The notes under the pieces were generated by a model. That model searched no databases. It had not been told where the DNA came from and worked only from the letters and a program-made list of their open reading frames with translations. A DNA stretch of 64,000 bases from Croceivirga sp. Lineage in GTDB: Bacteria > Bacteroidota > Bacteroidia > Flavobacteriales > Flavobacteriaceae. Shown one piece after another: positions 6,405-43,633 of this stretch. Within the stretch, counting starts at the first letter, position 1, and each line of letters opens with the position of its first letter. A program made the position numbers and the translations under genes. The stretch lies in NCBI GenBank assembly GCA_028284935.1, contig JANQQQ010000004.1:124001-188000 (forward strand), given 5' to 3'.

Positions 6405-7289
6405 TCAAAATTTAAGCTTTTCCTCCTTATCCCATAGCCCCCAATAGGCCCCAACATCTCCTTCCGAACCAACTTTCCACGATTCATCAAACGAGGAAAA
6501 ATAAAAGATTTCAATAGCTTCTTCCTTTGACCATTTCTGCGTATTCATAAAATACTTCAAAAAATTGGGGAAAGATGGGTAGGCCCCATCAAGATGGGTT
6601 CCTTCACTGGGCCATCCGGTTTCGGTAACGATCACTTTTTTACCATTACCCGCCCTTTCGGCCTGTCTGTACATATCCTTCATGTATAGAAGGGAATAAT
6701 CCAAATCACAACCTTCCCAAAAAGGATAGCAGTTCGCAAGAATAATATCGCAAAGTTCCGTAATTCTTGGTCGTTCCCTAAACTCATAATAGGCATCAAC
6801 ATATCCTATCGGTATATTTTTAATGGCATTTTTCGCTTGATTGATAAAGCCAATCAACTCATCTTCCGTTAGGTCCCCTCGATACATCACTTCGTTTCCG
6901 ACAGCTGCAATATCTACTAGGCCTTCATCAGCCAATTGAATCAAACCTTCCATTTCACGTGCGTTGCTCTCTGGATCATTACCCAACCAGGCCCCAACAA
7001 GCGTCTTAATTCCATAGTCCTTCGCGATTTTCGGTATCAATTCATTGCCCTCAGTACATGAAAATGACCGAATCCATTTGGTATAGGGCTTAATAATCTC
7101 CATTCGGCGCCGAATCTGTTCTTCACTGATTTGATCACCGGGCTCTTGATTTTCCTGGTAAGGGCTAAAACACAAACCATGCATCCCTTCTTTAAGTACC
7201 TCCCTGCATAAAAGTTTTAAATCCTCTTCCGATTTTCCGGAATACTCCATGGACGCAAGTGCCAGAAACCTTTCTGCTTTGTAAGACAT
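6405..7289 (-). CDS. Cytoplasmic GH17-like beta-1,3-glucanase/transglycosylase
   Basis: The 294-aa TIM-barrel protein carries both GH17 signatures: AAVGNEVMY with the acid/base Glu at about 133, and VTETGWPSEG with the nucleophile Glu at about 223. The C-terminal FSSFDESWKVG and GYWGLW-type aromatic stretch also fit the family. GH17 enzymes cut or rearrange beta-1,3-glucan. Unlike the other GH17 in this locus it has no signal peptide or lipobox, so it should act in the cytoplasm on imported oligosaccharides. It is the last gene of the minus-strand glucan locus, 49 bases after the symporter gene. Family is firm; endo-hydrolysis versus transfer cannot be told. Confidence 0.85.
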   Translation of the reverse strand: MSYKAERFLALASMEYSGKSEEDLKLLCREVLKEGMHGLCFSPYQENQEPGDQISEEQIRRRMEIIKPYTKWIRSFSCTEGNELIPKIAKDYGIKTLVGAWLGNDPESNAREMEGLIQLADEGLVDIAAVGNEVMYRGDLTEDELIGFINQAKNAIKNIPIGYVDAYYEFRERPRITELCDIILANCYPFWEGCDLDYSLLYMKDMYRQAERAGNGKKVIVTETGWPSEGTHLDGAYPSFPNFLKYFMNTQKWSKEEAIEIFYFSSFDESWKVGSEGDVGAYWGLWDKEEKLKF

Positions 7290-7338
7290 TATATCTTTCT
7301 ATTTTTTACGTTAAACACCCCTTTGGGAACTCCCAAAT

Positions 7339-8766
7339 TTAAGATTCAGTTGCTTTTCTCTTTTCAAGTTGGGCCCTTATTTCATTTGCCCTTTCTTCAG
7401 AAACATCATAATTTTTCATTATCAACATCGCGAACAAGGTTCCTACCATAGGAAAGAAGCAGAAAAATGCATGAAGACCATCAACCGCTCCCTGTTGCTC
7501 GGTGGTCGCTAAATCAGGGTTGAAACCTACTATTCCTATGATTACACCACTAAGAGCTCCAGCAATGGCGAATCCTACCTTGACCATCCACCAGTAAATG
7601 GCACCAAAAATACCTTCCCTACGTTTACCGGAATTCAATTCATCAATATCTATTACGTCTGCGGTCATTGACATCATAATGGTAAAAAGGCTCCCAATTC
7701 CAAATGAGAAAAACGGGAGTGCTATAATGTACAACCATGGCTTGCCCGGTACAAAAAGAAAGTACATCATGACATAACCAATAATGGAAATCGCCTGAGC
7801 CCACATGAACGCCTTTTTCTTACCCATTTTTTTAGACATCCATGTAACCGCTGGAATCACTATAAAAGTAGTTCCCAAAGCTCCTATACATCCAAAAAGT
7901 GCCACCCAAATACCTGTGGCCACCGCATCGCCATTGAACAATCGATATACAATAACAAAATACGTTAATGCCGCAACGGTGTTAAAAGCATTAAAAATTA
8001 AAAAGGTTGCCCCGCATATTTTTCTGAACTCCGAAATTTTAAATGCTTCCACAAAGCTCTGAACGATCTTCATGAGACTCCCACCAATATTAGCAACATT
8101 TAGGGGTTCATAATCTTCATCGAGCGTCGATTTGCTCTTTATGAACAACGCAGGAACCATTGCAGCAACGGCACAGGGTACAGCCACCCAAACTGCAAGC
8201 TCCCGTACCGCAATTTCTTGGTTGGGAAACCAATCCGGATTATCCATAATCACCCAAAACCAGGGGGCAATAACCCATGCCCACTGTCCGATCCACTGGG
8301 CCACCGCCATGATATTGGTTCGCTCATGAAAATCATCACTCATTTCATAACCCATGGCCACATAGGGCACACTAAAAAAGGTCAGACCCAAATAGAAAAC
8401 AATGGACCATAAAAAGAAATACCAGAAATTATACTGTAGGGTATTATCGGAATACAATTGCCACATCATGGTAAAGGCCACGCCCATAAGAATACCACCA
8501 ATGAGCACGTACTGTTTTCTTCTTCCATACTTGGATTTGGTATTGTCTGAAATAAAGCCCATAATGGGATCTGTAATGGAATCGAAAATCCTTGGGAAAA
8601 AATAAACCAAGGACCATAGCCATCCATCAAATCCGAAGGACTGCACAAGGACAACCATGAATATTCCAAGAATGGCTGGGAACATTTGATTGGCAAACAT
8701 GCCTACTCCAAAAGCTACTTTTTGCCCAAATGGGACTTTTGCTGCGGTACTTATGGCTTTATTCAT
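7339..8766 (-). CDS. GPH-type (MelB-like) sugar:cation symporter
   Basis: This 475-aa protein has twelve hydrophobic segments and the marks of the glycoside-pentoside-hexuronide:cation symporter family of the major facilitator superfamily: FDSITDPIMGFISDNTKSKYGRR in loop 2-3, YVAMGYEMSDD, and a DIDELNSGKRREGIFG motif in the second half. It should sit in the inner membrane and bring glucan oligosaccharides or glucose into the cytoplasm. It lies between GH30 and the cytoplasmic GH17, spaced 25 and 49 bases, so it is probably co-transcribed. With no SusC/SusD in the cluster, it is the only visible transporter. The substrate is inferred from context. Confidence 0.88.
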   Translation of the reverse strand: MNKAISTAAKVPFGQKVAFGVGMFANQMFPAILGIFMVVLVQSFGFDGWLWSLVYFFPRIFDSITDPIMGFISDNTKSKYGRRKQYVLIGGILMGVAFTMMWQLYSDNTLQYNFWYFFLWSIVFYLGLTFFSVPYVAMGYEMSDDFHERTNIMAVAQWIGQWAWVIAPWFWVIMDNPDWFPNQEIAVRELAVWVAVPCAVAAMVPALFIKSKSTLDEDYEPLNVANIGGSLMKIVQSFVEAFKISEFRKICGATFLIFNAFNTVAALTYFVIVYRLFNGDAVATGIWVALFGCIGALGTTFIVIPAVTWMSKKMGKKKAFMWAQAISIIGYVMMYFLFVPGKPWLYIIALPFFSFGIGSLFTIMMSMTADVIDIDELNSGKRREGIFGAIYWWMVKVGFAIAGALSGVIIGIVGFNPDLATTEQQGAVDGLHAFFCFFPMVGTLFAMLIMKNYDVSEERANEIRAQLEKRKATES

Positions 8767-8791
8767 AATCGTTTGGTTTGCTATTGTTCAA

Positions 8792-10282
8792 TTAATTGGT
8801 TATTAAGGTTTGAATTGCTTTAGGGCGGATATTCAGTTTCTTGGATCTATCTCCCAAAATCAATTCAAAATTTCTTGGTTCTTCGTTCATGTTTAAAACC
8901 ACCACGGCAATCGTTCCATCTGGATTCTTGGCAGCGGTAACCCATAAGGAATCATCCGTATTGCGCAACCCTATACGCGTGGCGCCTGGTCTGATATATT
9001 TGCTAAAATGGGCGATGGTGTAATATAAGGGCGTAAAATACACTTCATCCTTTTCCAAATCCACTATTACTGGGGCCACACACCAGTTTTTGGACCAATT
9101 GGGACCCCCATTGCGATCAAGAACCATATTCCAGTCCACCCAACCATCTACCCAATTGTTCAGACAGCCGATCATATCCCTAGCATAGCGATATACGGGA
9201 ACGTATTTAGGATGATACTTTTTTTGCGGTTCCGGAGCCCAGTCCCATCCCCAATCGGTTGCTTCTTTTGACCAGTACCATTGATCATCTTTCCATTTGG
9301 GTACTTGGGCATCAATACATGCTTCAGATTGAATCAGGTGTTTTTCAGGAACTTTTTGATGTGCGTATTGCAACGCCTCTGGAAAAACTTCATAGGTGCT
9401 GGCGTACCAATGTATGGCCGTACCCGCAAAATATTTGGAGGTCTCCGGTGATTTGTACATGATATCTACCCATTCCTTTAGATGTTCGCGGTTTTGATCG
9501 TATCCCAAAATCCTTACATCCCCGTTCCCCGTTTTCTCTAAAACAGGTCCCAAATAATTCTGCACAAAATGGGTCATTTCTTGGGGAGAAAAATGCATGC
9601 TTTCCCAATTATTTCCATTCCCCAAAGGCTCATTTTCAACCGTTATTCCCCAAATGGGTATTCCTACTTCCTTGTAGGCATCAATATATTTAGAGAAAAA
9701 CCGTGCCCAAACTTCATAATATTCAGGCAACAATTTGCCTCCTACATAGCTTTTATTGTCTTTCATCCATGGTGGAGCGGTCCATGGGGAAGCTATTACC
9801 TTAAATCCTCCAATTGAAGTGGCCATGGCCTCCTTTATAAAAGGAATGATATCATCCTTATCCTCTTTAATGGTAAAATGTTCCAATTGCCAATCATCCT
9901 CAACTGGGGCATAGGTATAATTTGTAAGGGAAAAATCACAGGAATTGATATGGGTACGTGTCAAGGAGTACCGAGCACCATCAGGACCAAAATACGCATC
10001 GATGATCCTTTTCCTTTGGGGTACACTTAACTGATTCAAAAGATGGGAGGACGATTGGGTGAAAGAGCCTCCAAACCCTGTAATCCTTTGAAATACTTTT
10101 TCGGGAAAAACTTCAATCTTGGCAAAGGAACCTGTTTGGGCAAATTCATGAATCCTTTTCATTTTATGGCCAGCCGCTGAAGTTTCGTATACTTGGACGG
10201 CTAAGGCTTCCTCTTTATCAGATGAAGGGGGGACCATGGCCAATGGTAGAACAAATGCTATTGCTTTTTCAACACTACCCAT
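8792..10282 (-). CDS. GH30-family glucosidase / beta-1,6-glucanase
   Basis: The protein is 496 aa. The N-terminal GFGGSFTQSSS (about 69-79) is the GH30 opening motif. The acid/base Glu lies in TVENEPLGNGNNWE (about E218), and the nucleophile is in LIQSEACID (about E320). A short C-terminal beta-sandwich follows the barrel, as in GH30 subfamilies 1 and 3. GH30_3 enzymes cut beta-1,6 bonds, which fits debranching of laminarin beside GH16 and GH17. The N-terminus has a weakly hydrophobic stretch (residues 6-17) but no clear cleavage site or lipobox, so location is uncertain. It starts 6 bases after the GH17 lipoprotein gene. Confidence 0.88.
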   Translation of the reverse strand: MGSVEKAIAFVLPLAMVPPSSDKEEALAVQVYETSAAGHKMKRIHEFAQTGSFAKIEVFPEKVFQRITGFGGSFTQSSSHLLNQLSVPQRKRIIDAYFGPDGARYSLTRTHINSCDFSLTNYTYAPVEDDWQLEHFTIKEDKDDIIPFIKEAMATSIGGFKVIASPWTAPPWMKDNKSYVGGKLLPEYYEVWARFFSKYIDAYKEVGIPIWGITVENEPLGNGNNWESMHFSPQEMTHFVQNYLGPVLEKTGNGDVRILGYDQNREHLKEWVDIMYKSPETSKYFAGTAIHWYASTYEVFPEALQYAHQKVPEKHLIQSEACIDAQVPKWKDDQWYWSKEATDWGWDWAPEPQKKYHPKYVPVYRYARDMIGCLNNWVDGWVDWNMVLDRNGGPNWSKNWCVAPVIVDLEKDEVYFTPLYYTIAHFSKYIRPGATRIGLRNTDDSLWVTAAKNPDGTIAVVVLNMNEEPRNFELILGDRSKKLNIRPKAIQTLITN

Positions 10283-10288
10283 GTATCA

Positions 10289-11575
10289 TTAGTGATTTAT
10301 CAATGTCAACCCTTTGGTTGGTGGTACCATCACCTTTTTCATCAGTTCTTCTTTATTCCCTGAAAACGTCTTCGTAATTGGGTTACCGCCCCTGGTCAAC
10401 CCTTCGAACATTCCTTGATCAACTGCATCCCACAACACATACTTCGCTTTTCCTTCTACCGTAAACAATCCAAAGTGTTTTTCCGAATCGCCCGGTTCTT
10501 CCCCCCCTTTCCACGGTTCATCGAACGCTTCAAAATAAAAGCAGGAAATACCTTCAGCGTTTGTCCAATCCCTCATTTTATGGTAAAAGAGGGCTTCTTT
10601 GTACTCATCGGTAGCCTTGGAACCGGCATCCCCATAAAAACCGTTGGAGAAGCTGGCCCACCCTGTTTCACCTATATGAACTGGCTTATTTACCCCCAAA
10701 CTTTTCATATAGGCAACCACACTGTTATATTGATTTTCTGCATATGCTTTGGACCTGTTCATTGTCCCTTCAATTTTTTCAATATCGGATAATCCACTTT
10801 CCTCTTCCAATACTCCCCAAAAATCAGGATTGTAATGCGTATCGTGCATGGGGTAGGTATGAACGGATAGAAAATCAACGGACTTGATAAGCTTGGTAAG
10901 GTCGTCAACATGGTATTCACCTTCTCCCCCACCCCAAGAGGCAAAATTATCCGAACTTGTAATCCACAAGTCTTTTGGAAGCTCACCAGATGCTTTTAAT
11001 CCTTGTAAATGATTTACCCATTTTAAGATAACCCAAGGTTGCACATAGTAGTTGGTAGCCCATTTGACCATAGCCTCGTTACCAACGGCAATCACCTTTA
11101 CGATATCAGGGTGGTTTTTGGCCAACCGGACCGCTTCATCTATTTCTGTGGCATTACGTTCGCTTTCCTTTTCATGGTCAGGTTCCAGATCGGTCCATGC
11201 ATTCTTACAGTCAATCCACGCCCCCAGCATCACATACATCTCAAAATTGGAATCTTCGGATTTGATTTCGTGAATGGCTTGTAACACGTTTGCGGCATGA
11301 GGTAAATGCACCTTATAGGTTCGTAGCACCTTAATGCCCATAGTTGCCAGTATTTTCATGTCTTCCTTCAATTCCGAAATGGTCGGCTCAATACCATGAT
11401 TGGGATGCCGGTATCCGCCGTATGAAATAGCTTGGTATTTTGGATTGCCTAAAATGTATTCTGCTGTCACTTTTTGTTTTTTTTCCTGAGTTATTTCTTT
11501 TGGTTTCGTTTCTTCCCGACATGAGGTCATAAACAAAACTGCCAATACCGCAAGGTGTATTTTTAATCTTTTCAT
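10289..11575 (-). CDS. GH17-like lipoprotein, beta-1,3-glucanase
   Basis: The 428-aa protein begins with a lipoprotein signal ending FMTSC (Cys19), so it is lipid-anchored, probably at the cell surface. The GH17 motifs are present: IAVGNEAMVKW with acid/base Glu near 167, and HIGETGWASF with nucleophile Glu near 303. FYFEAFDEPWKGG near the C-terminus completes the barrel. Expected role: cleavage of the beta-1,3 backbone of laminarin-type glucan. Its ATG overlaps the stop of the phosphorylase gene by 4 bases (ATGA), indicating translational coupling, and GH30 follows 6 bases later. Confidence 0.87.
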   Translation of the reverse strand: MKRLKIHLAVLAVLFMTSCREETKPKEITQEKKQKVTAEYILGNPKYQAISYGGYRHPNHGIEPTISELKEDMKILATMGIKVLRTYKVHLPHAANVLQAIHEIKSEDSNFEMYVMLGAWIDCKNAWTDLEPDHEKESERNATEIDEAVRLAKNHPDIVKVIAVGNEAMVKWATNYYVQPWVILKWVNHLQGLKASGELPKDLWITSSDNFASWGGGEGEYHVDDLTKLIKSVDFLSVHTYPMHDTHYNPDFWGVLEEESGLSDIEKIEGTMNRSKAYAENQYNSVVAYMKSLGVNKPVHIGETGWASFSNGFYGDAGSKATDEYKEALFYHKMRDWTNAEGISCFYFEAFDEPWKGGEEPGDSEKHFGLFTVEGKAKYVLWDAVDQGMFEGLTRGGNPITKTFSGNKEELMKKVMVPPTKGLTLINH

Positions 11576-14500
11576 CTCAATCTGGTTTTAGCTACCGAAA
11601 CAGTTATCTGGAGTACCTCGCCAGTACGTTTAAAAATACTATCGCTCAAAGAGATAGTCAAATGAGCACCTTGAATAACGGTTCGAGAACCATCATTATG
11701 CACTACTTCAACAGCATCGGTCTCAGCTATTCCATAAACTACAGGAATCTGACAATAGGTAAAGCCCAAAGAATCCGGTTCCAGGGTAATTTCCTTATGT
11801 TCTGATTGAAGGTTCACGTACTTAAAGACTTTTTTATCCTTTAAAAATTCCTCTTTTCTCAAGAGTACGGGGTCAAAACCAAGCCGCCCCTTTTGGACCG
11901 TAACCCCCAATTCACCAAACCGACTCAGGATATCTTCTTTGACCTGTCCGGTCATACCCGGCTGTTGGGCCCCTTTCCCTGCCGGCGTATGTGAATAAGG
12001 GTCGGTTGGGAAAGCTCCGTAAAGTTGTGGGGGCTTATGCACCCCTATGCCCTCATTTATTTCATAGAAATGCTCCAACAGTCTTTCTACGACTTTCCCT
12101 TCTTCCTCTTCTTTTATGGCTTTAATGCAACACTCCTTAACAGCCAATAAAAGTTTTGAGACCATATGCCAATAAATGGATCCGAGTCCCTCATATCCGA
12201 AAAAAGTCCCAGACCTGCCCGTAAAGGATTTATGATCAAAAACTGCCTCAAAACACTCCAAAACCCCTTCCCTTTCCCTTTTGGAAATTGAAAACAAGGA
12301 GGTATCCAGGGTGTCCAGTGCTTTTTCAAGGTCCTTTGCATTTCTGAAATTTCCATTAAAATGTACCTTCCCAGAAGCGTCTTTTTTTACTATCTGTCCA
12401 TTTCCACTTTCAAGTAAAGACGTTAGGAGTTTTGAAGTTTTGATACGTTCCTCGGGAACTGTATTCTTATTGATAAACTTCGGCAGGTCCTTATTGGGGT
12501 AGAGTATATAGCTGTACTGGTCCTCCCTAAACAATGAACTTGATTTTAATCCGTCCAACACGTTCAATGCCTGCTCACCATTTAAGTAGCCTGAACTCAG
12601 CACGGCCACTTGTCCTTCCAACATTTCACTGAGATAAGTGATGGAAACACCCCCATCTTTTTCAATTGACATTAGGTTGTATGCATGGTACATGCCATCG
12701 ACCCTTCTATTGGCTTCTATGGAGTGTTCCAAAAACTGGAGGGCAATCTTAATAAAGGCCTTCAACTCATGTATTGAAAGTTGTTGTTTTTTGCCTGAAA
12801 AGGAATCCTTGTATATTTTGTTTCGATAGGTACTTGCAGCGGTTCCCAAACCGTCCAAAATGTTCCTGCGATCGTTATTGGAAATGGTGCCTGACAACAG
12901 CTTTGCATTAGTGGTAAGCGTGGCAAGAATTTCATTAAAGAAAACAAATAGCTCTTTGGAGAGGGAGATTTTTAGGTTGTCCAATCCCTCGAAGTTGTCA
13001 TCAAAAAACTTGAGGTACCTTCTTAAATAATATAGGGTGACCATGGAAACACCGTTACCAACAAGGGCATTGTTGGCATCGTTCCATTCCGGTCGTTGTG
13101 TATTCATCCATATTCCCCCATCAGGAATAAAATTTGACACTTTCGCCAAAACGGAAGCAAGCATTTTTTCTATAAAATTGACCCTATGCAATTGGCCATC
13201 TGCCTGTTTTAATAGGGCGCCGTCTGCCCCCATCCGATTACGCGCCTTTCTTATCGAATCATCCGCAGCACTATCAAATTCTATGGTATCCTTTGGATCG
13301 ATCAATACTTCCTGATAGGATTTTATTTTGTAGGGAACATTAGCGTAAACAAAAATCTCTTTTTCAAAATAGCTTTTTAACCGTTCGGGATAGTGGTCAT
13401 GAATAAACTCCAAAAACTTAAGGGAATATATGATTTGATGATCTCCCCAATATCCAATGTAGGACCAGGGATCGTCCGGTTCTATAACCTCCCAATCGAA
13501 CCCACCCTTTGTAACCCGATATGGATTATACCCATCAAAGGTGGAAGCATTGAAAAACTTTAGTATCATTCCATCGATAAACTCTGGATAGGAATAGGCC
13601 AAAGCTTCCCAATTTTGGAAAATATCCCTCCAGTTGCCCTCATAATCCAAAATTTTGGATCCATCCAGTTCGTTATGGGTGTTGATGGAAAAAACATTCC
13701 AAGGTCGGCTTGGATCTCCATGTCTCCTACTAAATCTTAGTGGCAAATACTCCATACAAAGCCTTTCAAAATCAGGATCGGTATTTTTGGTCAGGAATAC
13801 CTGTAATTCTTGCAAGGTGAAGACTTCGGAAAGTAGGGACAAGTCCTCTTTCTTAGCCAGATATAACGGTTTGTTTGCATGGAGCAAATACTTCTTAAAA
13901 TCACCTTTTTCAATACGATAACCATCATCAAAAATCCCCCCACGCATAATATTAAAGAGGGTATTTGAGAAGTGACGGGTATCCCTTAAGGAATCAGAGG
14001 TACATTGAATAGCATCGGAAGATGCGTTTACTTCAATCAACTTCTTTGTTCCCAAGGCGACATCTTCCTGTACTTTCTCCAAGAGTTGTTCAGGATCTTT
14101 CAGACTACCTATGAGTTCCACAATATTGGAATGGTCCTGGTTGACATTAGCAACAATCGTCCATCGTTTAGAGGCATTAGGTGCCAATAGTTGTTCAAAA
14201 TTCAATAAATATGCTCCTTTTTCCCCTTTAATATCGTCCTCTTGGTATAAGGTTTTGTTCTTTCTAAAGGCATCCAACTGTGCAGCGGACAATAGATGCT
14301 TGGCATCTTTCAATCCTGAAGACCAAATGACATTGGCCTTAAGTGCTTCACTAGGTTCCGCCTTATCCACAATAATGGCACTTAAGGCATAAATTCCAAG
14401 CCCAACGCCGGTAACCAATTCGCTTCTTTTATAGGCATCGACCAAGTTACTTGCCCTGTTCTGGGTTTCGCTTGGAACACCATAGGGCAGGACATTCTGA

Positions 14501-15000
14501 ATACCGTCCAGAACCTCCAATTCTACGGTTAGGGAACCATCATTCCTCAAAGAGGAGTTTCGAACAAAACCAAATAGGTTACTGGAACACCATTGATAGC
14601 TAAAGGTCAGGTTAAGGTTGTTGTTGACCTCTTCAAAAATAATCTTATTGCCATGCACGCTTTTGTAAAGATTACGAGTAACGCTATATTTCCCTTCGTT
14701 ACGGATAGAAAAAGGCTCCCAAACCTCAAATCCAGATGTGTTCTTTATCCTTACAATCGTTTTGCTTCCCGTTATCTCCGAAGACTCGGTGATTTTATCG
14801 TCCGTATAATAGGGGAAAATGGCATATTGGGCATTTTTCCTTCCTGCAGACAATCCTCCATTGCTGGAGATGAACATCCAGTGATTGGAGTCGCTCACAA
14901 CCGTCATAAAAAATGGCCTTAGTACGTCAATGTCACTGATTTTGTAATACTCTTCTTGTCCAATATTTACTCGATGCATAGAAGTTTCCATATATTCCAT
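11572..15000 (-). CDS. Large GH94/GH149-like phosphorylase, probably beta-1,3-oligoglucan phosphorylase
   Basis: The protein is 1142 aa with no signal peptide, hence cytoplasmic. The N-terminal half is beta-rich (sandwich-like). The rest is an (alpha/alpha)6-like helical region with WSYIGYWGDHQ (about 512-521) and PEWNDANNALVGNG (about 637-650). The WND motif matches the catalytic Asp region of inverting phosphorylases such as cellobiose phosphorylase (D641 here), and QPGMTG near 1013-1018 is a likely phosphate-binding loop. Length and partners (GH17, GH30, GH16, symporter) fit GH149, whose members split beta-1,3-glucan oligomers with phosphate to glucose 1-phosphate. I recognise this from motifs, not alignment; GH161 or another GH94-clan family remains possible. 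Alternative starts lie at codons 4 and 8. Confidence 0.7.
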   Translation of the reverse strand: MEYMETSMHRVNIGQEEYYKISDIDVLRPFFMTVVSDSNHWMFISSNGGLSAGRKNAQYAIFPYYTDDKITESSEITGSKTIVRIKNTSGFEVWEPFSIRNEGKYSVTRNLYKSVHGNKIIFEEVNNNLNLTFSYQWCSSNLFGFVRNSSLRNDGSLTVELEVLDGIQNVLPYGVPSETQNRASNLVDAYKRSELVTGVGLGIYALSAIIVDKAEPSEALKANVIWSSGLKDAKHLLSAAQLDAFRKNKTLYQEDDIKGEKGAYLLNFEQLLAPNASKRWTIVANVNQDHSNIVELIGSLKDPEQLLEKVQEDVALGTKKLIEVNASSDAIQCTSDSLRDTRHFSNTLFNIMRGGIFDDGYRIEKGDFKKYLLHANKPLYLAKKEDLSLLSEVFTLQELQVFLTKNTDPDFERLCMEYLPLRFSRRHGDPSRPWNVFSINTHNELDGSKILDYEGNWRDIFQNWEALAYSYPEFIDGMILKFFNASTFDGYNPYRVTKGGFDWEVIEPDDPWSYIGYWGDHQIIYSLKFLEFIHDHYPERLKSYFEKEIFVYANVPYKIKSYQEVLIDPKDTIEFDSAADDSIRKARNRMGADGALLKQADGQLHRVNFIEKMLASVLAKVSNFIPDGGIWMNTQRPEWNDANNALVGNGVSMVTLYYLRRYLKFFDDNFEGLDNLKISLSKELFVFFNEILATLTTNAKLLSGTISNNDRRNILDGLGTAASTYRNKIYKDSFSGKKQQLSIHELKAFIKIALQFLEHSIEANRRVDGMYHAYNLMSIEKDGGVSITYLSEMLEGQVAVLSSGYLNGEQALNVLDGLKSSSLFREDQYSYILYPNKDLPKFINKNTVPEERIKTSKLLTSLLESGNGQIVKKDASGKVHFNGNFRNAKDLEKALDTLDTSLFSISKREREGVLECFEAVFDHKSFTGRSGTFFGYEGLGSIYWHMVSKLLLAVKECCIKAIKEEEEGKVVERLLEHFYEINEGIGVHKPPQLYGAFPTDPYSHTPAGKGAQQPGMTGQVKEDILSRFGELGVTVQKGRLGFDPVLLRKEEFLKDKKVFKYVNLQSEHKEITLEPDSLGFTYCQIPVVYGIAETDAVEVVHNDGSRTVIQGAHLTISLSDSIFKRTGEVLQITVSVAKTRLR

Positions 15001-15062
15001 TTATCAACTTAAAGATTAGCTGGTGCTTGTGTAATTTGATTTGGTTCTTGTTTTTTCAAGGT

Positions 15063-16355
15063 TCAATTTTTATGATTTGCCCCAGCCTTAACTAAGGCAT
15101 CATCTATACTTATGTTTTCAAAATTATTCATAAGTGTGCCGATGGTCATTCCATCTTCGTAAGGATTTAAACCGTGAACCCTTTTTAATACGTAATAGGT
15201 GGCCCTGGGCTGCAATTTGTACATCCCGTTTGCATCCGTTGGACCTTTGGCACATATTCCAAACCACTCCTCGTTCATGTTATTATCTCCAGGCAGGGCT
15301 TGATCTCTTGAATATCCATCATTCGCCCAGGTAGCCGTGTTATTGTGAACGTCCAAATCTTCTGTCTGTTTGTACTTCCACCAACCATCGCTAAATTGAA
15401 AAGTAAACCCTCCCAAGGAATTGCCCACTCCGCTTAATCCCGATGCGTTTTGGTAAATCTCTTTCCAATTTCCCAAGTTATAATAGGCCTGGCTAAACTG
15501 ATCTTCCTTTTTATCTCTGGCATTGAATGCGTCAGCACCGAATTCAGAAAATAAAATTGGCAAATCCAACTCGTTTTTAACCCTATCAAAGGCATCCCCA
15601 AAGGATACCCCTCGATACATATTTGTGCCGTAAATATCAATATCGGTACATTCTTCCTTTACAAGGTCCAAGTAAAGCAAATCACCATTACAAATGGCCA
15701 CGGGATGATTGCCATCAATTTTTTTTACTTCTTTCACGGCGTTATTGAACGCCCTATACAATGCACGTGCCTTTGCTTTCTTCCCTGCATCCACTTCATC
15801 ATCCGGTATTGCTTCTGTTTCCGCACCTTCCCAAGACAAATGATAATTGTTTTCATTTCCTATCATATAAAGCAGCAAACCGGGAGTATCTTTATAGGTC
15901 AGTGCCATATCCCTAACCTCTTTCATTAAAACTTCGATAACGGCTTTATCCGCATAATCCGTTTTTGAAATCCATTTGCCTTTAATGGGGACGCCATAAG
16001 CCCCAAATTGTGTGTTGATCATGGTATATATACCATGTTTTTCATAGATGTATTGAACCCATTTTGGTTTTAAGCCATAGGTCCTAATGGCATTACCGCC
16101 CATGTTTTTTAATAAGGACATCTCTGCATCAAGGGCTTGCTTTATCAAATTATCATCTTTGTCCCATATACCTCTGTCAAGAATTCCATCCCCAATAGGC
16201 ACGTAATCCCAGTTCACACCATTGACCATAAAGGGTTCACCATCCACCAACAACAATTTACCATCTGTACCGCTCAACACGGAAATACGGGCATTTTGTG
16301 AATGAAGAAAAGTGGAAACAAGCAATAGCACTAGGCATGCAAATCGGGTATCCAT
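15063..16355 (-). CDS. Secreted clan GH-A glycoside hydrolase (GH2-type TIM barrel)
   Basis: A signal peptide (residues 1-20, ending TFLHSQ) precedes a single TIM barrel of about 400 residues. Clan GH-A features are MVNGVNWDY near 43-51, NAIRTYG near 88-94, YMIGNENNYH with the acid/base Glu at about 168, and LFSEFGADAF with the nucleophile at about 271. The usual beta-sandwich domains of full GH2 enzymes are absent, so it is a barrel-only protein; the aromatic QFSDGWWKYK segment may line the substrate groove. It sits between GH16 and the phosphorylase in the same orientation, so a glucan substrate is likely. The exact GH family cannot be assigned by eye. Confidence 0.75.
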   Translation of the reverse strand: MDTRFACLVLLLVSTFLHSQNARISVLSGTDGKLLLVDGEPFMVNGVNWDYVPIGDGILDRGIWDKDDNLIKQALDAEMSLLKNMGGNAIRTYGLKPKWVQYIYEKHGIYTMINTQFGAYGVPIKGKWISKTDYADKAVIEVLMKEVRDMALTYKDTPGLLLYMIGNENNYHLSWEGAETEAIPDDEVDAGKKAKARALYRAFNNAVKEVKKIDGNHPVAICNGDLLYLDLVKEECTDIDIYGTNMYRGVSFGDAFDRVKNELDLPILFSEFGADAFNARDKKEDQFSQAYYNLGNWKEIYQNASGLSGVGNSLGGFTFQFSDGWWKYKQTEDLDVHNNTATWANDGYSRDQALPGDNNMNEEWFGICAKGPTDANGMYKLQPRATYYVLKRVHGLNPYEDGMTIGTLMNNFENISIDDALVKAGANHKN

Positions 16356-16510
16356 AACAGGTAATTTATACTTCCTTTTCTGGTACTTACAATTTCGCCC
16401 CTCCGTTTAAATCCTTTTACCGTTATCCATTTTAGCCACCCATTTTTGGGGTTTTAAACGGTCTTTAGAAAACTAAACGCAAGCAGCAGTATAAAGCGGT
16501 CAATTCCAAG

Positions 16511-16543
16511 TTAAAACAAAAGAGACCAGACAAGCTGGTCTCT
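16511..16543 (-). terminator. Terminator after the GH16 gene
   Basis: On the minus strand a 9-bp perfect stem (16535-16543 with 16521-16529, loop of 5) is followed by TTTTGTTTT. It lies 22 bases past the GH16 stop, so GH16 may be a separate transcript from the downstream hydrolase operon, or the stop may be partial. Confidence 0.7.
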
Positions 16544-16564
16544 ATCTGTAACTATTCAAACAAT

Positions 16565-19114
16565 TTATTGATACATCCTAACGTAATCCACTTCCATAGT
16601 GGACTCAGTAAATGCTGGATCAATATCTCCTCCGAGACTTCCACCCATGGCCACATTAAGAATGAAGAAGAAGTCTTTATTGAATGGCAATGTACCATCA
16701 TTAGTGACCGAATGATAAACTACTCCATCAACGGCGAACTTGATGTTGGTTTCCGTCCATTCCATTTCATAGACATGGAATTCATCGGAAGCTCCCTCAA
16801 CTATTGTTGTACCTGTTCGCGAATTGCCTCCAAAATTGTTTGGATCGTGTGTGGATGCCAAGACTACATCTTGATTGTTACCAACATGTTCCATAATATC
16901 CATTTCTCCAGCCGCTGGCCACGGATTTGTCAAGTAATCAGCACCCAACATCCAAATTGCAGGCCACGTTCCGCCGCCAGTGGGCAACTTAGCCCTGGTT
17001 TCTACCCTTCCATAGGTAAACTCTTGAAGGCCTTCAGATTTTATTCGAGCTGATGAATATGCTGCTGCTGCTGTTCCTGGATTTCCAAAGTCAAAGAAGA
17101 TAACAATCCTATCATAGTTAAAAGTTGCGGCGCCGCTAAAGTCGAAAGTCAATTCTTCCCAGGCTCCGGCTGTACTGGTCATAGCATCAACTTCCGCAAA
17201 GTTATTTGCATCATTGGAATCTTCAAGTTTTAAACGAACAACGGCATTGGCAATAGGAGACCACGTTTTTACCGAAATTGTAGGATTGTTGGGCACGTCG
17301 ATTGCCGGTGAAACATCAAAGAACGATGCTGCGAAAGTCTCTGACCCTTCTGATTTGGTGGTCCGCCCTACAGTTGCAGACGTATTTACACCACTCGCAT
17401 CAGGATTTGCAATGACATCCGAAGTTGCTCCCCCAAAATCTGTGAAAGCAGGGGCAGTCCCCTCAAAATCCTGAATAACCGATTGGCTTACACCACCAGC
17501 ATCCAACAATTGGAAATCATCAAAATAATACACGCCTTCTCCTGTAGGACTCTCAGCGCGGGCTGTAATCAAAAGATTTCCACTTGATACGATAACATTG
17601 GAAGCATCGTCTGTGTAAGACTGGATTTCTCCATTGCCCCAACCATTATCTCCAGTACCCAAATCATAGGTCCAATTGACTGGGTTGGGAGCACCATCCG
17701 TATCAAATTCATCTGCCCATATCAAATTGGTAAATACCGTTTCTAAAGGATCTCCAACTCCTTCGCCAAGGGTATCACTACCATCACCACCCTCTTGGAG
17801 CGATACGTTGTCTATATTGACCATTCCCACTTCCCCTCCGTTGTCAAAAAGGACTCGGCTATTTGCATCGCCAAAACCATTGGCATTCAGATTTAAGGTA
17901 AACGTTTGAACATCGGTGGTCAAATTAACAGGAACACTTGCGTTGGAAAAGTCGCCCCCACTAAGTCCGATACCGGCGACAATACTCCTTTCACGATCGG
18001 ACCAAGCATCAAATTCCAATATGTAGTTAGTGCCTGGAACTATATTTAGGCCTGTTTGGCTTAGGTTCACACTGAACACCTCACCTGCCATGTCTACCAT
18101 TACTGAATAATAGGTGTTGTCATCAACAGTTACTACAGGGGCTGGGTCTGAACTTACTCCAACGGTCCATGGGTCTGCACCGGCCTCGAAATCTCCGTTG
18201 ATTAGCTCTCCGCCGCCCATTCCGCCGTCTCCTCCGTCACCCACTACGACATCACTACCGTCACCTTTGACCATTTTATAATTCCAAAAAATTCCCGTAT
18301 CTGTTTCAATAACCACGGTCATGGTTTCACCATCTTCTGAAAATGTTACATCATAAGTAATTGAGTTAGGTAAGGCTACATTTGGTAACTCTCCGCCATT
18401 TACCGCTTTAGGTAACCCCAAGTACGCACCAGCTCCATTCAGGGTCAATGTACCCGCACTTGGATTGTAAGAGAACGTAGCATCTGCTGAACCGTCATGT
18501 GGGGCAACCGGAGCACCACAAGCATCTGCCATACCACTTTGCCAACCTTCAAGCCACGTCTCATCACCCAAGTCGTTGGTGAAAGAACCGTCGTCACCAA
18601 AAATATAGGTATCATTAAAGTAACACGCCCTTTGCATAAGGCCTGTACCGTCAATTGCAAAAAAGCTGATATCACCCGGTGCCGGGCCAACACCAAGGGA
18701 GCCCGCTTCATTGGCCATCACCCATGACCCAAACAGTACTTCGTTGGGATCAATGGTAACTTCCACCTCAACACTTATTGAAGAGCTGATATTACCGCCA
18801 CCCAAACTATAAGCCGTTACGGTGATATTATAAGTAGCTATCCCCTCCGTTGAATACTGATACGATGCTGTTTCCCCAGCTTCTACAACAACAACGTCCG
18901 CACCTTCTTCGAAATTAACAACAAAAATAGCCGCGTTGTCCGCGGTTGGGGTTACCTCAACCAGGCCGGAACCGTCCATGGCTACATTTGAGTCGATGGA
19001 AAGGTTTTCGGGAAAGACACCTTGAACCTGGGCATCATCGTCATCATTACAGGACAGGATTAACGCCGTGAAGCTCACTAGCAATACACTAAATAAGGTG
19101 ATTTTTTTTCTCAT
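16565..19114 (-). CDS. Multidomain GH16 laminarinase lipoprotein with a split catalytic domain
   Basis: The 849-aa protein has a lipobox ending LILSC (Cys22). Domains in order are a PKD-like domain (about 36-122), a lipocalin-like domain often paired with glucanases (about 126-283), a CBM4/9/22-like sandwich (LINGDFE to DNVSLQEG, 303-441) and a GH16 catalytic domain. GH16 begins at LIWADEFD (464) and runs to LLITARAES (522), is broken by about 160 residues resembling a carbohydrate-binding module (524-685), and resumes at YSSARIKSEG (686) to the end. The catalytic triad is intact in GEMDIMEHVG: E737, D739 and E742. It should be surface-anchored and attack the beta-1,3-glucan polymer first. 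The gene follows the regulator gene after 441 bases. Confidence 0.88.
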   Translation of the reverse strand: MRKKITLFSVLLVSFTALILSCNDDDDAQVQGVFPENLSIDSNVAMDGSGLVEVTPTADNAAIFVVNFEEGADVVVVEAGETASYQYSTEGIATYNITVTAYSLGGGNISSSISVEVEVTIDPNEVLFGSWVMANEAGSLGVGPAPGDISFFAIDGTGLMQRACYFNDTYIFGDDGSFTNDLGDETWLEGWQSGMADACGAPVAPHDGSADATFSYNPSAGTLTLNGAGAYLGLPKAVNGGELPNVALPNSITYDVTFSEDGETMTVVIETDTGIFWNYKMVKGDGSDVVVGDGGDGGMGGGELINGDFEAGADPWTVGVSSDPAPVVTVDDNTYYSVMVDMAGEVFSVNLSQTGLNIVPGTNYILEFDAWSDRERSIVAGIGLSGGDFSNASVPVNLTTDVQTFTLNLNANGFGDANSRVLFDNGGEVGMVNIDNVSLQEGGDGSDTLGEGVGDPLETVFTNLIWADEFDTDGAPNPVNWTYDLGTGDNGWGNGEIQSYTDDASNVIVSSGNLLITARAESPTGEGVYYFDDFQLLDAGGVSQSVIQDFEGTAPAFTDFGGATSDVIANPDASGVNTSATVGRTTKSEGSETFAASFFDVSPAIDVPNNPTISVKTWSPIANAVVRLKLEDSNDANNFAEVDAMTSTAGAWEELTFDFSGAATFNYDRIVIFFDFGNPGTAAAAYSSARIKSEGLQEFTYGRVETRAKLPTGGGTWPAIWMLGADYLTNPWPAAGEMDIMEHVGNNQDVVLASTHDPNNFGGNSRTGTTIVEGASDEFHVYEMEWTETNIKFAVDGVVYHSVTNDGTLPFNKDFFFILNVAMGGSLGGDIDPAFTESTMEVDYVRMYQ

Positions 19115-19555
19115 AACGATTTGTTTTCAAGTTAGAATAAAGCTGCATGCAATCTGTTTAACAAAAAGGACTCTTAAACGTCAAAAATTGTGATATCGTT
19201 AAACAAATCGCAAGAATACATATAATAATATTTCAAATTTTAAATTATTGCAAGGAAAAACTCAAGATTTCATAAAATCTTCTACTCTTCTATTCTAAAG
19301 AACCATCTTTTTGAATCTTAAATAGTTTTCCATGAAGCAAGCTATGAAGTATTCCAACCAAATTCACAAAATAGACCTCAACAAAAAATATACAAATTCC
19401 ATTTTTGCACAACTATTTTTATTAAAACCTCAAATTGCAACCGTAATTATTAGGGATTTGGTAATTGATTACTATGTACAAGAGTCCCATGTAAGAACGA
19501 AAAAAAAGTAGTTGTATAGGAAATGTTGTGGTAATTATAGTGGCTGATGTGGCCC
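19115..19555. promoter_or_regulatory. Probable control region of the GH16 gene
   Basis: These 441 AT-rich bases separate the regulator's stop from the GH16 start and hold no gene. An inverted repeat TGTTTAAC (19155-19162) / GTTAAACA (19198-19205), arms 35 bases apart, lies 41-91 bases before the GH16 start and could be an operator. I found no good TAnnTTTG box on the minus strand. Functional assignment is inference from position. Confidence 0.4.
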
Positions 19556-22354
19556 CTATAGGGAAATGATGTATTCAGTTAAGCTATTTTCATGGGGTAA
19601 ATTCATTTTTTTTCGCAAACGGTATCTCTTTACTTCAACACTCCTAACGGAAATGTTCAGTAAAGGGGCTATCTCTTTGGAAGAGAGGTTGAGTCTCAAA
19701 TAAGCGCAAAGTTTAAGGTCATTGGGTGTCATCCCAGGATGCAGTTCCTTGACCTTTTTCAAGAAGTCCTTATCGGCATTATTGAATGCTTCCTCGAAAA
19801 ATTTCCAATCATCCGTATTGTTTAGATTTCTGTCTATGGTGTGGATTACGGATTTCACTTCCGAATTATCTGCAACCTTATTGAGGTGCGATTTAATGGT
19901 ATTCAAAAATTCATTTTTCTTGATCATACTCATTGTTGCCACGGCGAGCTCCCTGTTTTTTGATTCAACCTCAGCCCGGAGTTTATCATTTCTAAGTTTT
20001 ATCAACTCTTTTTCCGCTTTCAGTTTCTTTCTTTTCTGCTTCTTCTTTTCCAGATGAAGTAGTCTTTCTTGCTTTCTTGTATAATAGGCGCGGTACATTC
20101 TGTGAATTCCAAAGAAAAGCGCACATGCTACAAGAACATACAGAAAAATGGCAGGAGCAGACCAATACCAGGGCCTTTTGACCCTAAAATCATAGCTTGC
20201 CAAGTTTGAGGTCATGGTATTGCCCACTTTTGCCTTAACCTCAAATTTATAGTTCCCAAATTTTAAATTATTGAAGGTTACCTCACTTTGCTTTGAAAAA
20301 GGACTCCATTCCTCAAATAGCCCCTCCAACCGATATTGATACCTTACTTCGTTGTACTTATTAAATTGTGGAACTGCAAATGAAAATGATACCGTATTAC
20401 TCTTATAGTCGAATTCAGGTATTGAAGTCAAATCTATTACCCTAGGTTCTTCCAAACCCCTTTGATTTACAACTTTGCCAATCTCAATGGAAAAGGAGGC
20501 CTCCTTTCGTTTGTTCAAATCCAATACAACAAAGCCGTTGGACATTCCAATAATATATTTATCATCCCCTATCGGTGTAAGATTTTCAAATCCTGAAACC
20601 CCCAGACTACCCTTAAAGAACGAAGGGATGGGGATGGTATTCAAGCCCAATGAGGTGCCAAATGCTCCGGGTTGCATATAGGAAAGACCACTTTGGGTAA
20701 AACACCATAATCGATTTGCTGGTTTGTCAGGTATGGAAATACTGGTAACTCCCCCTGCTTCTTCAAACAAAAGCTTGAGCAAAGTCGTATCCGGTGAAAA
20801 CGCAAAACTGTCCTTTTCCTTAAAAAATGCTCCTTCCAAAGAGGTATAGACTATCCGATCTTGGTACTTTGCAATGCTAGATCCATGTCCCATTATAGGC
20901 AAGGACCCTTCCTTTGCAATTGTGGAGTAATCCTCATCCAAGATTAAATGATAAAGGCCTTTATACTCATGGTTCACCAATACTTCCCTTTCTCCCAATA
21001 CCTCCAAAAACCGACTGGAAATGGGAAATCCTTCTATGGTATTTGAGAAAGACCAAGTCCCGTCTTGCTTTTTCAAGATTGAAATCCCATCGTAATTTCC
21101 TTGAATTAAAAGGAGTGGTTGTCCCTTTATTTCCTTTACCACCCAAGTGCCAGGTAAGGTCGATATTAATTGGGCTTTGCCATCATTGATTACAAAAGTG
21201 CCTTTATTGTGACCGCAAAATAGCGTTCCCTGAATCTCTGACAAACTCCAGACCTGTCCGTCTGTACCCGCAATAATCTTAAAATCGGATTCACCATGGG
21301 CTGAATTAACGAACAGCCCTTGATTTGTCCCTAAGTATAAACGATTTTTGAATAGTTTTGTCGCATACACCACGCCCAGTTTTCCGGAATTGTCCCTGAA
21401 TTCATTAAAGGGCGAATCCAAATTAATAACGCTCAAGCCATTGTCCAGACCCAACCACAAATTTTGGTCCCTGTCTTGAAAGGCATATAGTACGGTATTA
21501 TTATTCAAACCGTTTAATTGGTCGATTTTCCTTACTACCAATCCGTCCTTTCCAATATGAATTATACCGTGGGAGATTGTTCCTAAAATGAATGATCCAT
21601 CTGTCAATTGAATTGTACTATAAACGCTCAAATCCTGTACATCCAAGCTTCCAACATTCCATGGCACCACTCCTTCTTCACTTAGGGCAAGAAATTTGGC
21701 ATTATCCAAAATCATCAGAATTTGATTTTCAACCTTAAACATTCCCACAACATTGCGGTCGCTGATCAAACCATGATTGACTACGAGTTTCGGTTTACCA
21801 TGTTGAATTCTATAGACTCCTAAATTTTGATTTTGAAAGTACACCGTTTCATCTACCTTAAAAAGATGTGCCTTGGTAGATTTTGCTTCCAACACTTCAA
21901 AAGTGTGTGAAGCGATATTATAACTGTAAATTCGATCTAGCGATTGGAACAAAATCCAATCATCAAGGACAATAATATTCCAAAATTCCTCATCTTCAAT
22001 CATTTTGGCATCCATCTTGGTAGAAATGGATGAATACTCCAGAATGCCAAAATTGTTCTTTTTCCAATACCCAAACTCCATGTATTGGCCAGTGAAAATC
22101 AAAGAATCGTTTGCAGCAACAGATCTAAAAATTGATGCATTGGGGGACGCATACGTAGTCCATTCCATACCATTAAACTCCAATAGGTTATGGTTGTTGG
22201 CTACATAAATATGTCCATCAAACCCTTGCGTTATGGACCAGTTCTGATTTTCACCACCATAGTCTTTTGGTTGATAACTTTTTATGGGCGGTAGCGCCTG
22301 GGATTGCAGCAAGATTCCAGTAAAGAAAACACCTATATAGAGCCATTTAGCCAT
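19556..22354 (-). CDS. Propeller/YYY-domain transcriptional regulator with LuxR-type HTH
   Basis: The 932-aa protein has a signal peptide (1-20), then about 600 residues of two-component-regulator propeller repeats (such as ITQGFDGHIYVANNHNLLEF and FQDRDQNLWLGLDNGLSVI). A triple-tyrosine sandwich follows (YQYRLEGLFEEWSPF), then one membrane helix (about 740-760), a basic coiled coil and a C-terminal HTH with LSSKEIAPLLNISVRSVEVKRYRLRKKM. The sensor part is periplasmic and the DNA-binding part cytoplasmic, with no kinase or receiver. This type controls polysaccharide loci in Bacteroidota by sensing oligosaccharides. It lies first in the glucan cluster in the same direction, so it probably regulates GH16 and the genes after it. 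Confidence 0.88.
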   Translation of the reverse strand: MAKWLYIGVFFTGILLQSQALPPIKSYQPKDYGGENQNWSITQGFDGHIYVANNHNLLEFNGMEWTTYASPNASIFRSVAANDSLIFTGQYMEFGYWKKNNFGILEYSSISTKMDAKMIEDEEFWNIIVLDDWILFQSLDRIYSYNIASHTFEVLEAKSTKAHLFKVDETVYFQNQNLGVYRIQHGKPKLVVNHGLISDRNVVGMFKVENQILMILDNAKFLALSEEGVVPWNVGSLDVQDLSVYSTIQLTDGSFILGTISHGIIHIGKDGLVVRKIDQLNGLNNNTVLYAFQDRDQNLWLGLDNGLSVINLDSPFNEFRDNSGKLGVVYATKLFKNRLYLGTNQGLFVNSAHGESDFKIIAGTDGQVWSLSEIQGTLFCGHNKGTFVINDGKAQLISTLPGTWVVKEIKGQPLLLIQGNYDGISILKKQDGTWSFSNTIEGFPISSRFLEVLGEREVLVNHEYKGLYHLILDEDYSTIAKEGSLPIMGHGSSIAKYQDRIVYTSLEGAFFKEKDSFAFSPDTTLLKLLFEEAGGVTSISIPDKPANRLWCFTQSGLSYMQPGAFGTSLGLNTIPIPSFFKGSLGVSGFENLTPIGDDKYIIGMSNGFVVLDLNKRKEASFSIEIGKVVNQRGLEEPRVIDLTSIPEFDYKSNTVSFSFAVPQFNKYNEVRYQYRLEGLFEEWSPFSKQSEVTFNNLKFGNYKFEVKAKVGNTMTSNLASYDFRVKRPWYWSAPAIFLYVLVACALFFGIHRMYRAYYTRKQERLLHLEKKKQKRKKLKAEKELIKLRNDKLRAEVESKNRELAVATMSMIKKNEFLNTIKSHLNKVADNSEVKSVIHTIDRNLNNTDDWKFFEEAFNNADKDFLKKVKELHPGMTPNDLKLCAYLRLNLSSKEIAPLLNISVRSVEVKRYRLRKKMNLPHENSLTEYIISL

Positions 22355-22421: not shown

Positions 22422-22709
22422 CTAGATGATTTCCGCACTTAAACCGGCTTGCAAAAGCCTTGAGCAACGTGGTTTTAAATCGTCATACTCTCCGGTCTTC
22501 ACGGTACATTTTCCGTTATAATGGACAATTAGTGAACATTGCTCTGCCTGCTCGGGTGTGTGGTCGCAGACATCAATAAGAGTGTTGATGACGTGGTCGA
22601 AGGTATTTACATCATCATTGAAAAGGACAATTTCGTTCTGTTTAACAACTTCCTCTTCCAGTAAAAGCTCTTCCGATATTTTTTCTTTTACTCCCATCTC
22701 AATTGACAT
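22422..22709 (-). CDS. clpS: ATP-dependent Clp protease adaptor ClpS
   Basis: The protein is 95 aa, the usual size. The ClpS core is visible: EIVLFNDDVNTFDHVINTL, holding the N-degron pocket residues, then CDHTPEQAEQCSLIVHYNGKC and a C-terminal LKPRCSRLLQAGLSAEI. ClpS docks on the ClpA/ClpC N-domain and delivers N-end-rule substrates. It follows prmA by 6 bases on the same strand, the common Bacteroidota order tpiA-prmA-clpS, so the three are probably one transcript. Confidence 0.95.
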   Translation of the reverse strand: MSIEMGVKEKISEELLLEEEVVKQNEIVLFNDDVNTFDHVINTLIDVCDHTPEQAEQCSLIVHYNGKCTVKTGEYDDLKPRCSRLLQAGLSAEII

Positions 22710-22715: not shown

Positions 22716-23543
22716 CTAATGTACATATTTTGCCGCAACCCAATTGTTCTTTTCCGAATTTTTTTCAAATTGAAGATTATATGACGTACATTTTGTGGAA
22801 ATCATATCTAAATCCCTCAAATAGAACCCACTGAGCAATAAAATCCCATTTTCATTTAAGCAAGAGCTATAGGTTGGGATATCCTTTAGTAGTATATTAC
22901 GGTTGATATTGGCGATAATTATATCGTATTTTCTCTGCCCAAGAATTGAGGCGTTCCCCAACTCCACATTGATATGAGCACAATTGTTTTTCCCAATGTT
23001 CTCCATAGTGTTTTCCACGCACCATTCATCAATATCAATGGCGTCTATTTCATGGGCACCTCGCATCTCTGCTAAAATGGCCAACACACCTGTTCCACAG
23101 CCCATGTCCAACACTTTTTTTCCCTTCAAATCTTGCTCCAATACTAATTTAAGCATCATGTAAGTGGTTTCATGATGGCCCGTACCAAAACTCATTTTGG
23201 GTTCTATAACAATTTCAAAAGGGACATTCCTTTTTTCATGGAAAGGTGCCCTAACCCGACAGTCACTGCTAATCTCAATTGGTTCAAAATTTTTCTCCCA
23301 CTCGACATTCCAATTTTGTGGTTCAATCGCTTTTGAAGTCCAACTAATTTCAACATCAGGATTTTGAAAGATAAAAAGCTCATGTAAGGGATGGCCTGAC
23401 CATTGCTCGGAAAGAATGTAAGCCAAAAGACCATTTTCCGTTTCAACAAAACTATCAAAACCCAATTCCCCAAGCTCGGCAATCAATATTTCCCTGGCGG
23501 GCTTCAAAGGGGAAATGGAAAAGGTGAATTCTAAATAGGTCAA
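22716..23543 (-). CDS. prmA: Ribosomal protein L11 methyltransferase
   Basis: This 275-aa protein has an N-terminal substrate-recognition domain followed by a class I SAM-dependent methyltransferase. Visible motifs are FGTGHHETT (about residues 138-146), VLDMGCGTGVLAI (SAM-binding motif I) and IIANINRNIL (motif IV, N-I-N type). It methylates ribosomal protein L11 in the cytoplasm. The only suitable start is TTG at 23543, with no in-frame ATG close upstream. It lies between tpiA (43 bases upstream) and clpS (6 bases downstream) in one probable operon. Confidence 0.95.
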   Translation of the reverse strand: MTYLEFTFSISPLKPAREILIAELGELGFDSFVETENGLLAYILSEQWSGHPLHELFIFQNPDVEISWTSKAIEPQNWNVEWEKNFEPIEISSDCRVRAPFHEKRNVPFEIVIEPKMSFGTGHHETTYMMLKLVLEQDLKGKKVLDMGCGTGVLAILAEMRGAHEIDAIDIDEWCVENTMENIGKNNCAHINVELGNASILGQRKYDIIIANINRNILLKDIPTYSSCLNENGILLLSGFYLRDLDMISTKCTSYNLQFEKNSEKNNWVAAKYVH

Positions 23544-38776: not shown

Positions 38777-38798
38777 TTTTCAAGTTCGATATTTGGCC

Positions 38799-40727: not shown

Positions 40728-40815
40728 TTGAACAAAAAAGGTATTCCATCTTTTTCACCACAGGTATTTTCAATTTCACAACATTGTACTTCCGTTTATC
40801 GATTCATTTGATGTT

Positions 40816-40834
40816 TTTGTAAGATTTTTCGTTC
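40816..40834 (+). repeat. 19-base upstream motif, copy 2
   Basis: This is an exact second copy of TTTGTAAGATTTTTCGTTC, in the gap between the two LruC genes and 122 bases before the second one. Confidence 0.55.
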
Positions 40835-40956
40835 AATTTAGCGCTTGGTTATTTTAAAATTGCTTAGTCGCAGGCTAATTGCCGTTCGTCGATAGCTTTT
40901 TTAATCCCAAATAAAACCTACATGGGCAGCATACCATTATATACACCTTTGAACAA

Positions 40957-43381: not shown

Positions 43382-43468
43382 TTTCTCTTTTGTTATGTGT
43401 TATGATCAAGTTGTGAGCAGATTCCTAAAATCTAAATGTATAACTCAAAAACCTGAACGCTAAAATTG

Positions 43469-43540: not shown

Positions 43541-43633
43541 AATATGTAACGTATGAAATAAAAAAATGAAATTGAAAATGGATCTGCATCGATAGATTTC
43601 AAACCTCATACCTGTATTTCATACTCTGCCTTG

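Follow-up and report, generated by a model that had tools for sequence, protein, structure and literature searches.

A probable reduced laminarin gene cluster without SusC/SusD in Croceivirga, and a predicted enzyme and outer-membrane-barrel fusion in its relatives

The 64,000-nucleotide stretch of a Croceivirga sp. genome analysed here (assembly GCA_028284935.1, contig JANQQQ010000004.1, positions 124,001 to 188,000; hereafter the window, on the contig we call C11) carries at 6405-22354 eight open reading frames, all on the minus strand, which we read as a reduced cluster of carbohydrate-active enzymes (CAZymes) for laminarin, a beta-1,3/1,6-glucan. Few of the carbon pools that marine bacteria move are larger than laminarin. 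The SusC/SusD pair (SusCD) is both the accepted outer-membrane gate and a usual marker for predicting its use. Our conclusion is that the window locus, which lacks such a pair, is of a known kind and probably works as set out below. The new part is not this locus but a protein found in its relatives, in which a glycoside hydrolase (GH) domain is fused to a predicted outer-membrane beta-barrel.

All eight frames were confirmed by Pfam, NCBIfam and PDB sequence searches, and the matches agree with the set of GH16, two GH17s, GH30, clan GH-A hydrolase, phosphorylase, symporter and regulator that the original prediction had placed on this strand. Reading along the minus strand, the regulator (19556..22354) has a Y_Y_Y domain (Pfam, 43.5 bits) and a C-terminal LuxR-type helix-turn-helix whose GerE/LuxR match, at 22.4 bits, is just below the Pfam cut-off of 23.5. 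It is followed by a GH16 glucanase with a CBM_4_9 module (16565..19114), assigned by domain searches and a predicted lipoprotein by its lipobox (Cys22), and by a short clan GH-A protein, GH158-like and with a signal-like start (15063..16355). The large WND-motif protein (11572..15000) is indeed a phosphorylase, of family GH149: it matches the beta-1,3-glucan phosphorylase profile NF058639 over residues 6-1136 with 1757 bits (cut-off 1150), and PDB 6hq6 with 1612 bits. Its WND motif lies at residue 639, and no signal-like start was seen. GH17A (10289..11575), of endo-laminarinase type and again a predicted lipoprotein (Cys19), matches PDB 6fcg, a solved GH17 that we take to be the Formosa enzyme, with 658.7 bits. 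The GH30 gene (8792..10282; Pfam GH30, 249.7 bits) scores 249.8 bits with NF053856 (endo-1,6-beta-glucanase), short of the cut-off of 700, and we judge it a probable GH30_1 beta-1,6 debranching enzyme by its synteny with a published cluster (PMC13188888). The inner-membrane GPH-type symporter (7339..8766), of the major facilitator superfamily (MFS), matches Pfam MFS_2 with 207 bits and TIGR00792 with 175.6 bits, the latter short of its cut-off of 231. GH17B (6405..7289; Pfam GH17, 46.8 bits) matches a beta-1,3-glucanosyltransferase (PDB 4wtp, E 8e-32); it is predicted to be an exo-glucosidase or transglycosylase, and is probably cytoplasmic, no signal-like start having been seen. Its namesake MlGH17B is a beta-1,3-glucanosyltransglycosylase (PMC13188888).

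The lipobox, assessed with a simple pattern, is present in GH16 and GH17A and absent from GH149, GH30 and GH17B. The motifs expected at the active sites are there: the GH17s carry GNE and GETGW/TETGW, GH30 has ENEP and SEAC, GH16 has EMDIME and GH149 has WND. GH17A and GH149 overlap by 4 bases, and gaps inside the GH17B-to-GH149 block are at most 49 bases. These family assignments uphold the predicted beta-1,3/1,6-glucan gene set with phosphorolysis and a symporter. The absence of a SusC/SusD pair from the locus also stood, given that the SusD (PF07980) and TonB-plug (PF07715) profiles have no match anywhere in the window (C11:124001-188000); contig C11 has two TonB-plug matches, both outside the window, and our custom SusC/SusD profiles found none in the first 36 kb. 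With neither a SusD nor a TonB plug in the window, the locus is not a canonical polysaccharide utilisation locus (PUL) as defined by SusC/SusD, and it fits what PMC10108472 calls a CAZyme cluster.

Such clusters have precedents. GH149 clusters without susCD have already been described in Bacteroidetes; in gene company like that of the window, GH149 is accompanied there by GH3 or GH30_1 together with GH17 or GH16, and susCD may be present or absent (PMC5827456). In addition, an NS4-clade genome has one laminarin cluster without susCD (PMC10108472). The closely similar cluster of Muricauda lutaonensis has a LuxR regulator, GH16, 'GH2' and GH149, and ends downstream in GH17A, GH30_1, MFS and GH17B; other Muricauda keep this downstream order, with GH3 replacing GH149 in some (PMC13188888). 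The window also has the enzyme set of the variant B/1 laminarin PULs, namely GH16, a GH17 pair, GH30 and MFS, plus the GH149 that several of them share (PMC6298971, PMC10108472, PMC6246565). Those PULs are defined with SusCD, and an MFS-GH17 fusion is common there, whereas the two are separate genes in the window.

We propose that the GH16 lipoprotein would cut laminarin at the cell surface, and that the short oligosaccharides would cross the outer membrane into the periplasm, probably through a general porin. There they would be shortened by the GH17A lipoprotein together with the secreted GH158-like enzyme, and the GPH symporter would carry them into the cytoplasm, where GH30 would remove beta-1,6 branches and GH17B would trim or transglycosylate. 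GH149, whose action on beta-1,3-gluco-oligosaccharides is suggested by its similarity to 6hq6, would phosphorolyse beta-1,3 chains to glucose-1-phosphate, saving ATP, and the YYY-LuxR protein would switch the cluster genes on. It is important to note that substrate, localisation, flux and regulation are all what we infer for this cluster.

The clan GH-A protein is where the window departs from its relatives. It has 430 residues, is 57% identical to the fusion of G100, a genome of the same genus, and aligns only with the enzyme part of that fusion; searched with the fusion, the window genome likewise matches only residues 4-434, with no match to the barrel. Judged by sequence, what the window retains is an enzyme domain, short and diverged, with no barrel behind it. 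Its branch in the tree is very long (1.27), and the genus's other short form, in G107 (445 residues), is placed apart from it; in G107 a contig end cuts the upstream side of the cluster, and a laminarin-type SusC lies on another contig. A 443-residue version in G048 was rejected as a further genuine case, since its contig stops within the gene. The window protein matches the GH158 structure 9oro at E 1.2e-7, a profile of 19 relatives gives a GH158 match at E 7.9e-4, and a GH158 is the top Foldseek match (E 2.5e-13) of a relative's fusion model. Structurally, the relatives' enzyme domain matches best the GH158 endo-laminarinases (BuGH158, 6pal; GH158(Pro), 9oro), whose catalytic Glu motifs align with its own; in sequence the similarity is weak. 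Conserved GNEN and (S/T)EFG motifs, GNEN and SEFG in the window protein, hold the two glutamates, one after beta4 and one after beta7, that likely serve as acid/base and nucleophile. Assignment to GH2 was rejected because Pfam gives only a weak GH2_C match (31.1 bits) and the relative's fold search ranks GH158 first; we take the 'GH2' of M. lutaonensis to be this GH-A gene, which has a barrel in most relatives examined here and is short in the window; the text of PMC13188888 mentions no outer membrane, porin or TonB.

In most relatives the GH-A gene encodes about 1050 residues, a GH158-like domain followed by some 620 residues without a Pfam match. Twenty of 22 GH-A genes from relatives (at least 45% identity) encode 1040-1092 residues, the exceptions being G107 and G061, where the gene seems split into two frames (G061:C1 ~1626542-1627818, locus L088). 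Within the genus, six of 11 genomes have the fusion at full length, two the short form (the window and G107) and three neither. When one genome was scanned for each species, at least 550 relatives of the fusion query were confirmed; the best 80 of these, the named loci below, are all fusions. The 620-residue part has no Pfam match at E up to 1 and no PDB sequence match at E up to 5, and a PHROGs search gave nothing informative. In the AlphaFold2 model of the whole fusion (mean pLDDT 68.8, pTM 0.48), a beta meander comes after an enzyme barrel (24-430); modelled alone, the C-terminal part has pTM 0.70, mean pLDDT 69.4 and about 24-26 strands by manual count. The 50 listed of its 843 Foldseek matches are all outer-membrane barrel proteins (E 1e-10 to 3e-6, TM-scores just 0.24-0.38), among them transporters, porins, LptD and Mtr barrels; 4q35, 6r2q_B, 8agd and 7zgx were classed as such proteins on grounds other than their titles. 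Hydrophobicity alternates along the strands at 2.70, against 1.61 (sd 0.24) in shuffled sequences, 0 of 1000 of which reach that value. We conclude that the C-terminal part is predicted to be an outer-membrane beta-barrel, an amphipathic strand meander. Two fusions scanned have no Pfam match to the plug or CarboxypepD_reg domains, both of which appear in a SusC control, so that by domain content the fusion is not a TonB-dependent receptor of SusC type.

The combination of a GH158-like enzyme with a predicted outer-membrane barrel is apparently undescribed so far: we found no report of it in the open-licence PMC literature (a search that lies apart from subscription journals and preprints), nothing relevant in a Zobellia paper (PMC5613140), and no mention of it in the excerpt on GH149 clusters (PMC5827456), unlike the relatives here. 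At its C-terminus BuGH158 carries an Ig-like domain (PMC7157763), where the fusion has the predicted membrane barrel.

The fusion sits in the stretch between regulator and GH149 that SusCD fills in other clusters. In the 27 regulator-bounded clusters, this stretch holds SusCD only in 10, the fusion only in 12, both in two and neither in three, namely the window, G109 and G037, the last of which bears the fusion on the opposite strand. The 12 of 39 clusters outside this count comprise four with SusCD and fusion, one with SusCD only, two with fusion only, and others with neither or cut. The annotated set is 38 clusters from 37 relatives, leaving out G057, G062, G082 and the split G105; SusC/SusD calls in relatives come from script-built profiles of the window genome's own proteins (one SusC was confirmed by Pfam), and genome and cluster counts are raw, with kinship ignored. 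The regulator is immediately upstream of the fusion in 52 of the 80 named loci, where SusCD lies upstream in 21, is lacking in 53 and is cut off in six; these loci were selected for the fusion and thus have no bearing on the overall frequency of SusCD. In every named locus where the next gene is visible (78 of 78), a protein of about 470 residues comes directly after the fusion, and 60 of 79 copies have a lipobox pattern. Across the class, the barrel also occurs in seven of 149 genomes (the window's own counted among the 149), in other families and in frames of 1041-1078 residues; all seven regions preserve the gene order of fusion, adjacent protein, GH16, (PKD-type) and GH149, and no SusCD was seen in the 20 kb examined for each.

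GH149 itself goes with both arrangements. It is found in 34 of 100 family genomes (own included), each another genus, in nine of 11 genomes of the genus (eight above the cut-off; one split across contigs), and in 57 of the 80 named loci. It is absent from eight that have more than 9 kb downstream, and at L134 the one protein tested at its place is a GH3. The original prediction had offered a phosphorolytic branch as one account of the missing SusCD. The phosphorylase is there, but since GH149 occurs in both kinds of cluster, phosphorolysis is not what separates this locus from SusCD loci; on the same evidence we rejected the phosphorylase as a replacement for SusCD.

There are two possible explanations for the fusion. 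The first is that fusion and adjacent protein form an enzyme-coupled outer-membrane gate that replaces SusCD, and that the window has lost this gate. The alternative filling of the slot after the regulator, the constancy of the adjacent protein, the predicted barrel fold and the gene order kept across families all argue for it, as does a search for SusC of the type commonest in GH149 clusters. This search scored 31 candidates in each of 26 genomes, picked from the window's genus, from fusion clusters without SusCD before GH149 and as four SusCD controls; the four genomes G071, G061, G034 and G069, in which SusCD accompanies the fusion, lay outside the sample. All four controls were recovered (47-49% identity), and 10 of the 26 genomes were positive (47-53%, above 860 bits), the remaining matches being at most 40% and 582 bits. 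Seventeen genomes entered the sample on account of a fusion cluster with no SusCD ahead of GH149, and 14 of them lack the commonest type; the three that have it are G002, G019 and G050, of which G019 is cut by a contig end. Against the gate, the search is limited to those 31 candidates and misses four of 15 SusC proteins known from the slot, SusCD and fusion coexist in some of the bounded clusters and named loci noted above, and the models are of moderate confidence (mean pLDDT 69). Instead of forming a pore, the predicted barrel may serve as an anchor. We would place the gate reading just short of an even call.

The second explanation is that the barrel is an autotransporter-like anchor that displays the enzyme, oligosaccharides entering SusCD-less strains through general porins. 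The enzyme does precede the barrel in the chain, like an autotransporter passenger. Classical autotransporter barrels have 12 strands, far fewer than the 24-26 predicted here, and the structural matches listed are transporters, porins, LptD and Mtr barrels, making us regard an anchor as doubtful.

For the window itself, the original prediction had also suggested reliance on SusCD encoded elsewhere, and this we did not find supported. The genome (38 contigs, completeness 99.99%) has six SusD genes (PF07980), on contigs C5, C8, C17, C25 and C27, and 36 TonB-plug matches, and a laminarin SusC of a divergent type could go unrecognised by a search that misses four of 15. Yet no SusD-bearing contig has a GH16, GH17 or GH3 match (GH16 lies on C11 and C37, GH17 on C11 only, GH3 on C13, C21, C30 and C36), and the tested neighbours of SusD are of other kinds: GDPD, FG-GAP/UnbV_ASPIC, phosphatase, sulfatase, FAD oxidoreductase, FecR, photolyase-related and GH65, a family of alpha-glucoside enzymes. 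While the search recovered every control, the window genome and G109 show only 34-35% matches, and the four SusC proteins of the window genome that entered the comparison share 29-33% identity with the commonest laminarin type. On this sequence evidence, dependence on a distant pair appears unlikely. As a separate observation, the SusCD pairs on C5 (L045) and C27 (L049) of the window genome, G000, adjoin large FG-GAP/UnbV_ASPIC proteins.

Several points weigh against our conclusion that the window holds a reduced laminarin cluster of a known kind. Any of the 36 TonB-plug proteins could import glucan, and contigs C8, C25 and C26 end close to SusC or SusD genes, so that a pair could be partly hidden. 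Of 15 slot SusC proteins, 11 are 44-75% identical to the query and four are not close (G034 34%, G032 32%, G064 27%, G061 41% over part); as some in-cluster SusC are equally distant, lack of the commonest type is weak evidence. With GH30 below the NCBIfam cut-off, its beta-1,6 specificity leans on synteny and the published account. Finally, the fusion may have been gained elsewhere and never been present here.

The loss is nonetheless the simplest reading of the chromosomal site. The cluster adjoins clpS (22422..22709; Pfam ClpS, 70 bits), prmA (22716..23543; PrmA, 157.9 bits) and tpiA (23587..24336; TIM, 323 bits), all on the minus strand, and tpiA-prmA-clpS adjoins the cluster in 13 other regions among those examined. 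The window cluster is at the same site as in fusion-bearing relatives: G108 and G100 of its own genus, G026, G086/L208, L132, L138, L146, L170, L171 and L194, which include Croceitalea, Muriicola and others. Of regions with the same flank, G050:C4 has SusCD, and G109 has neither SusCD nor fusion. We infer a loss of the fusion cassette at this site, and not a gain elsewhere.

Other features were seen in the relatives' clusters. At L071:13760-14767 a second GH-A relative (335-347 residues, 25-27% identical) lies after GH17A and before GH30 or MFS; similar genes occur in G043, G046, G008, G025, G064, G017, G066, G045 and G005, and eight of the 10 clusters with one also have SusCD. A Sugar_tr family transporter precedes GH149 at L133:18473-20014, and other Allomuricauda/Flagellimonas loci have similar-sized genes at that position. 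In L219 (G105, same genus), a window-type GH16 upstream of the regulator and a fusion cassette downstream stand side by side. Elsewhere in the window, two large neighbouring genes at 38793-43059 (plus strand) each have a DUF4842 domain, and a tandem pair of tRNA-Glu (ttc) genes lies at 43468-43705 (minus strand).

Taken to the family as a whole, our tentative proposal is that many marine Flavobacteriaceae may import laminarin without SusCD, through a TonB-independent, hydrolysis-coupled enzyme-gate made up of a GH158-like laminarinase, a large plug-less barrel and a glycan-binding lipoprotein, and that the window lineage has lost this gate. If many degraders do use the enzyme-barrel fusion, surveys based on the SusC/SusD marker would overlook them, and a second way for glycans to enter would become testable, while the window illustrates how far a laminarin cluster can be reduced.

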